Assembly (NCBI RefSeq): GCF_003205205.1
Contig: NZ_QJRL01000025.1
Span: 1 to 64,000, forward strand
Reading direction: 5' to 3'
DNA: 64,000 nucleotides
Source of the DNA: Pseudomonas sp. LB-090624
GTDB taxonomy: Bacteria > Pseudomonadota > Gammaproteobacteria > Pseudomonadales > Pseudomonadaceae
How positions within the stretch are numbered: position 1 is the first letter of the stretch; the number at the start of each line of letters is the position of its first letter. Positions 5,866-50,967 of the stretch are shown here, one piece after another. The translations under genes and the position numbers were made by a program. A model generated the notes under the pieces. It did not search any database, was not told the origin of the DNA, and saw only the letters and a list, made by a program, of their open reading frames with translations.

Positions 5866-5980
5866 GGGGCCGCTTTGCGGCCCTTCGCGGGCATGCCCGC
5901 TCCCCAGGATTCATCGGTCTGAGCAGCGGTGCCGTACCTGCAGGAGCGGGCGTGCCCGCGAAGGGCTGCAAAGCAGCCCC
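5866..5980. repeat. Inverted pair of REP elements (BIME) between rnhB and dnaE
   Basis: Two copies of a roughly 43-bp sequence face each other: one at 5866-5908 (GGGGCCGCTTTGCGGCCC, then TTCGCGGGC..GCCCGCTCC) and its near-reverse-complement at 5937-5980. The core TTCGCGGG...CCCGCTCC is the P. putida-type REP core. Transcribed, the pair folds into a long hairpin and may end the lpx-rnhB transcript or protect its 3' end. The right copy is followed by seven A residues, as expected of a hairpin read from the other strand. Confidence 0.8.
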
Positions 5981-19595: not shown

Positions 19596-20450
19596 ATGAG
19601 CCTGGATAATATCTCCTGCCAAAAGAGCTTCGGCGGCTGGCACAAGCGTTACCGGCATCACTCCAAGGTGCTGGGTTGTGACATGGTGTTCGCTGTGTAC
19701 CTGCCGCCGCAGGCCGAGCAGGGTGAAAAGCTGCCGGTACTGTACTGGCTCAGCGGCCTCACCTGCACCGACGAGAATTTCATGCAGAAGGCCGGCGCCC
19801 AGCGTCTGGCCGCCGAGCTGGGGCTGATCATCGTGGCCCCCGATACCAGCCCGCGTGGCGAGCAGGTGCCGGGCGATCCGGACGGCGCCTGGGACTTCGG
19901 CCTGGGCGCTGGCTTCTACCTCAACGCCACCCAGCAACCTTGGGCGCAGCACTACCGTATGCACGACTATGTGGTGGAAGAACTGCCGGCGCTGATCGAG
20001 GCACACTTCCCAGCGTCGGCCGAGCGCAGCATCAGCGGCCACTCCATGGGCGGGCATGGCGCACTGGTATGCGCCTTGCGCAACCCGGGGCGCTACCGCT
20101 CGGTCTCGGCGTTCTCGCCGATCAGCAACCCGATGGATTGCCCGTGGGGCGAGAAGGCGTTCAGTCGCTACCTGGGCGAAGACCGTGCGCGCTGGCGCGA
20201 GTGGGATGCCAGCGTGCTGCTGGCCGAGACGCCTGCTGGCGAGTGCCCACCCTTGCTGGTAGACCAGGGCGACCGCGACGACTTCCTCGAGAAGCAGCTC
20301 AAGCCCGAAGTGCTGGAGCAGGCGGCACGCAAGGGCGGCCATGAACTGACCCTGCGCCTGCAGCCTGGCTATGACCACAGTTACTACTTCATCGCCAGCT
20401 TCATCGAAGACCACCTGCGCCATCATGCGGTGGCGCTGGGGCGGGTTTAA
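19596..20450 (+). CDS. fghA: S-formylglutathione hydrolase
   Basis: This esterase-D family serine hydrolase releases formate and glutathione from S-formylglutathione, the second step of formaldehyde detoxification. The 284-residue alpha/beta hydrolase has the nucleophile elbow GHSMGGHGA and the C-terminal His in GYDHSYYFI; an Asp in [10 protein letters not shown] completes the triad. It lies 8 bp after the dehydrogenase and clearly shares its transcript. A long inverted-repeat element begins 29 bp after its stop. Confidence 0.95.
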
Positions 20451-20478
20451 GCCGTAGCATTTTCAGCGTTTGTGATAC

Positions 20479-20691
20479 CGAGCGCCGCCCGCGCGGCGCA
20501 TCGCGAGCTGCGCTCGCTCCGTTTGTTTCGACCAATTATGCCTGGGGGATTTACGCGCGACCGCGTTGGCGCATGACGCGATATCGCGTCATTCAAACAA
20601 GGCGGTCGCGCGCGCCTGTCACAGGCGTTACTGGCCCGAAAAAAACGTAGGAGCGAGCGCAGCTCGCGATGCGCCGCGCGGGCGGCGCTCG
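20479..20691. repeat. 213-bp element with perfect 42-bp inverted arms (MITE-like or giant REP)
   Basis: Bases 20479-20520 and 20650-20691 are exact 42-bp reverse complements (ends CGAGCGCCGCCC... and ...GGGCGGCGCTCG). The 129-bp interior is itself nested: GCGCGACCGC pairs with GCGGTCGCGC around an 18-bp palindrome TGACGCGATATCGCGTCA, and CGCCTG TCA CAGGCG follows. No open frame of any meaning is inside. The structure resembles a non-autonomous transposon or a large BIME. I see no target-site duplication. It lies in the 338-bp gap between fghA and ispF. Confidence 0.8.
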
Positions 20692-20759
20692 ATCTCGCAG
20701 GCGCCGCCAATACAGCGTCAATCACCTCACGCCCCAATGCCTCAAAAGCAGGTAGAATC

Positions 20760-20786
20760 ACGCCCTGACTCATTCAGGGCGTTTTT
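20760..20786 (+). promoter_or_regulatory. Terminator-like hairpin covering the ispF ribosome binding site
   Basis: ACGCCCTGA and TCAGGGCGT form a perfect 9-bp stem with a five-base loop; a T run (20782-20786) begins at the last base of the stem and the ispF ATG is at 20789. The only Shine-Dalgarno-like sequence (AGGG, within CAGGGCG) is inside the right arm. The hairpin could end upstream transcripts, act as an attenuator, or block ispF translation. Confidence 0.65.
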
Positions 20787-20788
20787 CT

Positions 20789-21262
20789 ATGCGTATTGGC
20801 CATGGCTACGATGTGCACCGTTTCTGCGACGGTGATTTCATTACCTTGGGCGGGGTGCGTATCCCGCACAAATTCGGCCTGCTGGCCCACTCCGACGGTG
20901 ACGTGCTGCTGCACGCCCTGAGCGATGCCCTGCTTGGCGCGGCCGCGCTGGGCGACATCGGCAAGCATTTCCCAGACACCGACCCGCAGTTCAAAGGTGC
21001 CGACAGCCGCGTCCTGCTGCGTCACGTGGTCGCTATCGTCAAGGCCAAGGGCTGGCAAGTCGGCAATGTCGACGCCACCATCGTCGCCCAGGCACCGAAA
21101 ATGGCCCCGCACATCGAAACCATGCGCCAGTTGATCGCCGAAGACCTGCAGGTCGAGCTGGACCAGGTCAATGTCAAGGCCACCACCACCGAAAAACTGG
21201 GCTTCTGTGGCCGCGAGGAGGGTATTGCCGTGCATTCGGTCGCCCTGCTGCTGCCAGCATGA
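20789..21262 (+). CDS. ispF: 2-C-methyl-D-erythritol 2,4-cyclodiphosphate synthase
   Basis: IspF cyclises CDP-methylerythritol phosphate with loss of CMP in the isoprenoid pathway. The 157-residue protein starts with the family signature [12 protein letters not shown], giving the zinc ligands Asp and His, and has [18 protein letters not shown]. There is no free Shine-Dalgarno sequence: the only candidate lies in a hairpin directly upstream. It overlaps truD by four bases, and truD overlaps surE, so these are co-translated. Confidence 0.97.
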
Positions 21263-49533: not shown

Positions 49534-50925
49534 ATGCTCAACCGCCACTCGCTGTTCTGGAAGCTGGCCATCCTGCTGGTGGGTTTTTGCCTGCTGATGA
49601 TCGGCCTCAGCTACACCTGGGGCCGCCATATGGAAACCCAGAACGCCTTTCTCTCCGAACCGGCACGGCAAGCCTTGCGTGGCTATGCCAGCGAGGCCGA
49701 GCAGGCCTGGCGCAGTGGCGGGCGGGCAGGGCTGGACCAGTGGGTGGCGGTGATGCACCAGCGCGAACGCGGCTGGGTGGGCGTGCTCGATATGAACCTG
49801 CGACCGCTCGACAGTGCCACCCTCAACCCGCAGATCATGCAGCGGCTGACTCGCCTGCGCGGTGTCGACTGGCCGATGAGTCGGCGCAGTGTCCATCAGC
49901 CATGGGTGCGCATTCCATTTCCGGGGGCGCCGGAGCAGGGCATGCTGGTGATCGAACTGCCGGAGCGGTTCAATCCGGACCAGTATCGCTTGCTGTGGCG
50001 TATGGTCACCAACGGCATCATCCCGGGCCTGTTCACCTTGCTGCTCTGCGTGGGCCTGTACCGCATGTTGATCGTGCCGCTGAACCAGCTGCGTGAGCAG
50101 GCCAATGCCTGGCGCGCCGACCAGCTGTCGGCGCGGCTGGACTCGCGCACCATCGCCCGGCATGACGAACTGGGTGAGCTGGCGCGGGCGTTCGACCAAA
50201 TGGCCGAACGCTTGCAGGGCACAGTCGCCATGCAGCAGCAGTTGCTGCGCGACCTGTCCCACGAAATGCGTACCCCGCTGAGCCGCTTGCGGGTGGCAGG
50301 CGACGGCGAGACTGACCTGCAACGCCTGCGCGAGCGCCTTACCCGCGAGGTGGACTGCATGCAGCAATTGGTCGAGGACACCCTGCAGTTGGCCTGGCAG
50401 GATGCCGAGCGCGCGCCGATGAACCTGGAGCCGATCGAGGTCCACGCGCTGTGGGAATTGCTGGCCGAGAATGCCTGCTATGAAAGTGGCTGGTCGCCTG
50501 CGCGGTTGCGTTGCGAAGTTCCGGCTGATTGCTGGGTGCAGGGCAACCTCAACCACTTGGCTCAGGCGCTGGAAAACATATTACGCAATGCCATCCGTCA
50601 CTCGCCGGCCGAAGGGGTTGTGCGGTTAGGTGGGCAGCGTGAGGGTGGTTACTGGTGGCTTTGGGTTGAAGATGAGGGCGGCGGGGTAGCGGAAGACGAC
50701 CTGGAACGGATCTTCGCGCCGTTCTCGCGGCTGGACGGTTCGCGGCCGGGGGATGGGGGCTTCGGCTTGGGCTTGAGCATCGCCCGCAGTGCCATTCAGC
50801 GCCAGGGTGGGACCTTGTGGGCGCAGAATGGCAAGCATGGGCTGCGGCTGTGGATGAGGCTGCCGATACATGTGCCGGCCCCTTCGCGGGCCCACCCGCT
50901 CCCACAGTTACAGCATTTATCTTGA
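49534..50925 (+). CDS. Sensor histidine kinase, partner of the upstream regulator
   Basis: A 463-residue kinase: TM1 (about 9-28), a periplasmic sensor of about 130 residues, TM2 (about 160-180), HAMP, HisKA with His243 in RDLSHEMRTPLSRLR, and HATPase motifs NILRNAIRHS, DEGGGV and GFGLGLSIA. It is 2 bp after its regulator gene. The last 16 residues (448-463, PAPSRAHPLPQLQHLS) are encoded by a REP element and look unlike kinase sequence, so a REP insertion seems to have replaced the original end of the gene. Confidence 0.9.
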   Translation: MLNRHSLFWKLAILLVGFCLLMIGLSYTWGRHMETQNAFLSEPARQALRGYASEAEQAWRSGGRAGLDQWVAVMHQRERGWVGVLDMNLRPLDSATLNPQIMQRLTRLRGVDWPMSRRSVHQPWVRIPFPGAPEQGMLVIELPERFNPDQYRLLWRMVTNGIIPGLFTLLLCVGLYRMLIVPLNQLREQANAWRADQLSARLDSRTIARHDELGELARAFDQMAERLQGTVAMQQQLLRDLSHEMRTPLSRLRVAGDGETDLQRLRERLTREVDCMQQLVEDTLQLAWQDAERAPMNLEPIEVHALWELLAENACYESGWSPARLRCEVPADCWVQGNLNHLAQALENILRNAIRHSPAEGVVRLGGQREGGYWWLWVEDEGGGVAEDDLERIFAPFSRLDGSRPGDGGFGLGLSIARSAIQRQGGTLWAQNGKHGLRLWMRLPIHVPAPSRAHPLPQLQHLS

Positions 50926-50967
50926 AGGCAGCGCGATCCCTGCGGGAGCGGTCGTGCCCGCGAAGGG
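50875..50967. repeat. Inverted REP pair overlapping the end of the kinase gene
   Basis: Copy 1 (50875-50907, CCGGCCCCTTCGCGGG... ACCCGCTCCCACAG) lies inside the kinase coding sequence; the inverted copy 2 is at 50938-50967 (CCCTGCGGGAGCGG...CCCGCGAAGGG). The stop codon of the kinase is between them. Confidence 0.85.

Follow-up and report, generated by a model that had tools for sequence, protein, structure and literature searches.

An inverted-repeat element between fghA and ispF of Pseudomonas sp. LB-090624, very probably an aged copy of a RAYT-associated REP doublet

The gap between fghA and ispF in Pseudomonas sp. LB-090624 contains two long and exactly matching inverted arms, which raises the question of whether it harbours a mobile repeat or a structure that belongs to the two genes it separates. 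We analysed this locus within a stretch of 64,000 nucleotides (contig NZ_QJRL01000025.1, hereafter the window), for which a preliminary description had been made from the sequence, and compared it with the rest of the genome and with related genomes. The answer that we hold with considerable confidence is that the fghA-ispF element represents a single, aged copy of a RAYT-associated REP doublet of the REPIN/TIRtron type, about 262 bp long and probably spread by the resident RAYT. REP doublets accompanied by a RAYT are a kind already known, to which this copy and its RAYT add a new member.

Arms, fold and limits of the element

Self-comparison of the window sequence confirmed that positions 20479-20520 and 20650-20691 are exact 42-bp reverse complements with 129 bp between them, as had been described, and when extended the arms reach 62 nt at 87% complementarity (20459-20520 and 20650-20711). 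Two of the smaller structures reported inside them are likewise present, namely a 10-bp inverted pair (GCGCGACCGC at 20555-20564 with GCGGTCGCGC at 20602-20611) and a CGCCTG-TCA-CAGGCG hairpin at 20613-20627, while the central palindrome, rightly called perfect, measures 20 bp instead of 18 (ATGACGCGATATCGCGTCAT, 20573-20592); all three were read from the sequence. As single-stranded DNA, the region 20455-20715 folds at -119.5 kcal/mol (z = -14.59), a stability equalled by none of 200 dinucleotide-preserving shuffles, and its RNA fold gives z = -15.14 against shuffles. The arms, the nested inverted pairs and the central palindrome are real and lie far beyond chance. An Rfam search of positions 20300-20900 returned nothing above threshold, its one sub-threshold match reaching 21 bits against a gathering score of 70.

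Each arm is composed of a hairpin with a 7-bp stem (SLS) and an inverted REP whose GTAG tag points to the centre. On the minus strand at the left lie the outer hairpin GCGCCGC-CCGC-GCGGCGC (20482-20499) and the REP with its tag side inward (20500-20520); on the plus strand at the right lie the REP GTAGGAGCGAGCGCAGCTCGCGAT, tag inward (20647-20670, from the sequence and a motif search), and the outer hairpin GCGCCGC-GCGG-GCGGCGC (20671-20688), both hairpins being assigned from the sequence and from conservation over 30 copies. The family REP reads GTAGGAGCGAGC-GCA-GCTCGCGAT, and both GTAG tags are intact in 28 of 30 copies. According to the sequence and the copy alignment, the left CTAC tag of the window copy is missing 3 nt (CTA), and it is because of this deletion that the exact match of the arms ends at 42 bp. 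The spacer (20521-20646) is imperfectly palindromic by sequence and fold and holds the 10-bp inverted pair and the CGCCTG/CAGGCG hairpin.

The limits first proposed for the element, 20479-20691 (213 bp), are too narrow. From the size difference with the sister genome G045, the inserted unit is about 262 bp long and reaches past them on both sides, to about 20451-20712, each end being placed to within roughly 15 bp. Its left outer end (20451-20481) is inverted relative to the right outer end, loosely conserved in a profile of 59 arm flanks and partly paired in the fold; the right outer end (20689-20712) was placed from the same profile and the G045 comparison. Conservation of the outer ends fades by about 50 bp in this profile. 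Beyond about 24 bp it may reflect a target preference, a possibility that arises because the empty L022 site in G045 already holds a similar stretch, as judged by eye. Two further approaches were discarded: outer-end symmetry within copies, although significant, was too weak to serve as a main argument (0.48 vs 0.436, P 0.008, 27 copies, positions 9-48), and in a covariation analysis of the whole fold both sides had changed in 4 of 2330 cells and 27 were broken, too few for a claim.

Copies, empty sites and conservation of the family

A search of the own genome for further copies, as the preliminary description had advised, found them in large numbers. Forty places, scored from 130 candidates, match the element at 89-100% identity in the better orientation; because the element is nearly palindromic, all 40 can be aligned in the opposite orientation too, at 79-84%. 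A search of this genome for the REP hairpin motif of the arms, allowing one mismatch, gave 156 matches, against none for a reversed-pattern control. Among the first 100 of these 156 places, 37 tail-to-tail REP pairs (74 places) were found, 33 of them spaced by 153-155 bp; tandem copies at about 330 bp occur at C8, C37 and C2. At least ten contigs begin less than 200 bp from a family hairpin among the matches listed, and the assembly therefore probably undercounts the copies. A GC3 heuristic placed 27 of 30 copies outside predicted open reading frames. The family is thus present in dozens of copies and is mostly intergenic. Plasmid and phage collections yielded no match to the element at E 1e-5. 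In a survey of 95 genomes with at most eight candidates scored per genome, element matches were found in seven, the own genome included; the six others are G045, G023, G057, G025, G009 and G051.

Comparison with relatives revealed sites that are filled in one genome and empty in another. The fghA-ispF gap measures 338 bp in the own genome vs 76 bp in G045, and the span between the same aligned edges 333 vs 71. We examined this site in 30 loci, namely the own one and those of 29 relatives, taken as the best among 80 genomes that gave a match; neither the element nor its SLS occurs there in any of the 29 relatives' loci, G045 included. Size differences with G045 give unit lengths of 262 bp (L001) and 257 bp (L022). 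Nine of 30 long-form sites are colinear in the 2.4 Mb of G045 that were compared, while the other 21 have no mapped or colinear counterpart there; five of the nine are without the element (L001, L002, L008, L019, L022), three carry it (L012, L021, L023) and one has a short form (L018, see below). The L019 gap in G045 holds another REP pair, and at the L012 site of that genome both arms contain REPs of a different class. No clear target duplication is seen at the L001 or L022 sites, where the insertion ends are uncertain by about 15 bp.

The distribution of changes along the element was read from 30 aligned copies, a sample biased towards those most like the window copy. In these, the two SLS together differ from the consensus in 11 of 1200 cells (0.0092 per site) and the REPs in 12 of 1440, vs 205 of 3810 cells in the spacer (0.0538 per site), making the arms about six-fold more conserved than the spacer. 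The window copy has 16 differences from the consensus, the largest number of the 30, of which 11 are in the spacer, 3 in a REP (the tag deletion) and 2 outside. Exact identity of the arms had been taken to suggest recent insertion, strong selection or gene conversion. With arms so much better conserved than the spacer, and with the window copy the most diverged of the 30, the exact arms have been kept by constraint and are no sign of youth. The window copy is probably an old one that is no longer mobile.

A variant REP hairpin tends to be present in both arms of its copy. Among 40 copies pooled from the own genome and G045, 13 deviate in the REP hairpin and 7 carry the same variant in both arms, against a mean of 0.39 after shuffling (P 5e-5). 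Taken by genome, such pairs number 6 of 10 in G045 (P 1e-4) and 1 of 30 in the own genome (P 0.065); it is in G045 and in the pooled set that the signal lies.

The RAYT gene and related REP systems

The transposase with matching ends that the preliminary description had proposed to look for is present. The own genome has one Pfam Y1_Tnp match, a protein that scores 157.2 bits against the NCBIfam model REP_Tyr_transpos (REP-associated tyrosine transposase, cut-off 80) and below the cut-off of the NCBIfam IS200 model. Its only PDB match is TnpArep (4er8, E 2.7e-7), and it carries an HVH motif at residue 70 and Tyr-Tyr-Asp at 112. The gene adjoins rpsA and is flanked on the left by about 135 bp of element, the greater part of one copy, and on the right by an arm remnant (27 nt, 93%). 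In G045, the RAYT is 82% identical and has a complete element on each side.

We tested the flanks of 17 of the 76 RAYT loci found. Eight of them match the element within 700 bp, six on both sides and two on one, and some of the eight match by one arm only. They comprise the loci of P. putida KH-21-134, P. hunanensis, P. parafulva (one side), a record labelled Pantoea sp. Ap-967, P. taiwanensis, P. sp. GM84, P. plecoglossicida and P. faucium (diverged, one side). At the other nine loci no element was seen, two of these (L100, L103) being cut by contig ends. Since rpsA (30S ribosomal protein S1) is found within the RAYT locus in 6 of 16 tested, the own genome included, so that this place is common to several related species, it would seem that the RAYT stays at a fixed place in the chromosome and that only the repeats disperse.

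RAYT flanks were viewed in the first five of the six other genomes that match the element. G023 has a 50%-identical RAYT adjoined by diverged elements that are built on the same plan, and the best RAYTs of G057 (of 4), G025 (of 2) and G009 (of 2) are flanked by other REP classes. In general, the presence of the element does not track that of RAYTs, with 7 vs 71 of the 95 genomes. A rule that the closest RAYT predicts the element was considered and rejected, as G024 has a 63%-identical RAYT and no element match; G057, G025 and G009, with other REPs beside their best RAYT, strain it too.

From this sequence evidence, the resident single RAYT probably spread the family. Recognition of folded single-stranded arms and transfer through an HUH tyrosine are known of the RAYT/IS200 group. 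The element has an outer hairpin plus an inverted GTAG REP per arm, set tail-to-tail across a palindromic spacer, and the RAYT, as an HUH single-strand transposase, would recognise the folded arms in single-stranded DNA, probably at the replication fork. It would then copy or cut out the hairpin and reinsert it without an obvious target duplication, and the window copy would have been inserted in this way just after the fghA stop codon. The family offers a compact test bed for RAYT action: there is one RAYT, at a chromosomal place shared by several species, the copies number in the dozens and are nearly identical, sister genomes provide sites that are filled, empty or in a short form, and the arms of a copy can carry matching changes.

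TIRs are described by Di Nocera et al. (2013, PMC3733652) as degenerated GTAG-1 units that adjoin unrelated stem-loops and flank the genes of tyrosine transposases, and they number in the hundreds in the genomes of P. putida and P. fluorescens. The same paper recognises TT dimers, the REP arrangement with tags inside. Compared by description only, the arm of SLS and REP fits the TIRs of the Pseudomonas TIRtrons (P. putida ppf 607, P. fluorescens pfs 4255), and in our genome, too, a degenerate GTAG-1 unit with an SLS flanks a tyrosine transposase. Bertels and Rainey (2011, PMC3116915) defined the REPIN as an inverted REP doublet forming a hairpin, mentioned internal deletions that leave one palindrome, and called the way in which RAYTs move REP doublets unresolved in 2011. 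The REPINs and RAYTs of P. fluorescens SBW25 described there resemble our element in the hairpin-forming inverted doublet, the spacer less conserved than the ends, the extragenic location and the single-copy RAYT. More generally, the element has the GTAG palindrome, the inverted doublets at fixed spacing and the extragenic high copy number by which REPINs are recognised, and a cognate RAYT flanked by the same repeats exists in the own genome, in G045 and at the eight loci above; at the best RAYT of G057, G025 and G009 it does not. The commonest inter-REP spacings in SBW25 are 71 and 110 bp, whereas those here are mostly 153-155 bp, and SBW25-type REPINs have their tags outward, head-to-head, whereas ours point inward (TT), with an extra hairpin outside each REP. 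It is because of the inward tags that we file the element as a RAYT-associated REP doublet and not as a canonical SBW25-type REPIN.

Among the REP classes of Nunvar et al. (2013, PMC3686654, Table 1) that we compared, the nearest is PF18 (GTAGGAGCGAGCyyGCTCGCGA), assigned to P. extremaustralis 14-3; relative to GTAGGAGCGAGCGCAGCTCGCGA here, its REP differs only in the loop (sequence and length), and its partner hairpin differs also. Flanking of RAYT genes by inverted REPs was reported by Nunvar et al. (2010, PMC2817692), and stem-loop families of P. putida are listed in PMC2267715. The 35-bp REP of P. putida (Aranda-Olmedo 2002) belongs to the same host group and such REPs occur elsewhere in the window, but its stem and loop are unlike those of our REP and it lacks an SLS partner. 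The element was thus correctly set apart from the ordinary P. putida REP, but it is still REP-related, with an inverted GTAG REP in each arm. No mention of the arm sequences as text was found in the open-licence literature.

Short forms, alternative readings and the flanking genes

Besides the long form, the family has a short form, a palindrome made of the outer end, one SLS and the outer end, without the family REPs. It occurs at 20 places in the own genome and at 13 places in 2.4 Mb of G045, none of the latter with a family REP hairpin within 300 bp. Of the 20, 15 were fetched, and 13 of these 15 have no mapped or colinear counterpart in those 2.4 Mb. The L018 site is long in the own genome and short in G045, and the L297 site short in the own genome and long in G045; among ten relatives fetched for each of the two sites, only G045 has either form. 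In the accessible parts of the open-licence literature we found no description of long and short pairs at one site. The L295 site spans about 3.3 kb in G045 vs 242 bp in the own genome, and its short form is broken off inside its hairpin.

The simplest reading of the short form is that a long form lost the interior that lies between its two SLS. Alternatively, the short form could be an older outer palindrome that was invaded at its hairpin by a REP doublet, after which the composite spread. The stand-alone short forms with the same outer ends in both genomes, the long and short states of L018 and L297 in different genomes, and the REP module of another class in both arms at the L012 site of G045 all speak for such a two-step origin, but loss of the inner part explains these data equally, and internal deletions are mentioned for REPINs in PMC3116915; we consider the composite origin rather unlikely. 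Similarly tentative is the thought that the family cycles between long (SLS-REP-spacer-REP-SLS) and short (one SLS) forms at fixed sites, with the outer hairpins as the joint at which the inner doublet is lost or gained; since a REP module of a different class can fill both arms, the outer element would be a docking frame exchanging REP doublets.

The remaining explanations fare worse. The label MITE-like given earlier was apt in that the element is dispersed, non-autonomous and multi-copy, and a classical MITE, which derives from a DDE insertion sequence by internal deletion and is mobilised by the transposase of that sequence with target duplication, would also have a length of about 260 bp, terminal inverted repeats, many copies and empty sites. 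However, the transposase beside the ends is a RAYT, the arms contain GTAG REPs and the empty-site comparison gives no clear target duplication, which leaves that origin quite improbable; what we see is very probably a RAYT-associated REP doublet and not a classical MITE/IS pair. A fixed regulatory structure, local to fghA and ispF and kept by selection on those genes, would agree with the strong fold of both DNA and RNA, but it is scarcely credible given dozens of copies elsewhere, the absence of the element at this site in all 29 relatives examined, and a window copy that has drifted more than the other 29 compared. The RAYT-doublet explanation that we favour has its own difficulties, since inward tags with an extra outer hairpin are unlike the head-to-head dimers of P. 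fluorescens, the best RAYTs of three genomes carry other REP classes, 9 of 17 RAYT loci (two of them cut by contig ends) are without the element, and RAYTs are present in far more genomes than the element is.

The upstream gene fghA (S-formylglutathione hydrolase) is an open reading frame at 19596-20450 on the plus strand (NCBIfam TIGR02821, 424.9 bits, cut-off 281.7), and its stop codon abuts the insertion; the downstream gene ispF lies at 20789-21262, also on the plus strand (TIGR00151, 240.4 bits, cut-off 116.45). The effect on the formaldehyde operon and on ispF expression that had been suggested from the position of the element is hypothetical. The block upstream of ispF, with a -10-like TAGAAT and a hairpin just before the gene, is downstream of the insertion and intact. 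At most, the element would add a strong hairpin to the 3' end of the fghA mRNA.

Several further features of this region were observed. In the ispF leader (window positions 20750-20788), the -10-like TAGAAT is seen by eye in 29 of 30 loci, the stem pattern of the hairpin after it (CGCCCTGA / TCAGGGCG) in 26 of 30, and a TTTTT within 12 nt of the ispF ATG in 29 of 30; hairpin and T-run appeared terminator-like in a scan, and the hairpin is possibly an attenuator or a start-site hairpin. In G057 (L064) and G025 (L065), REP pairs of other classes occupy the fghA-ispF gap, which makes it a repeated landing place. The gap of G023 (L083) is 943 bp long and contains GATCTGGCTTTT-type repeats in arrays, together with long inverted segments. 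The window itself has two ordinary P. putida-type REP pairs, at 5884-5962 and 50883-50964, which are among six REP matches there vs 0.05 expected.
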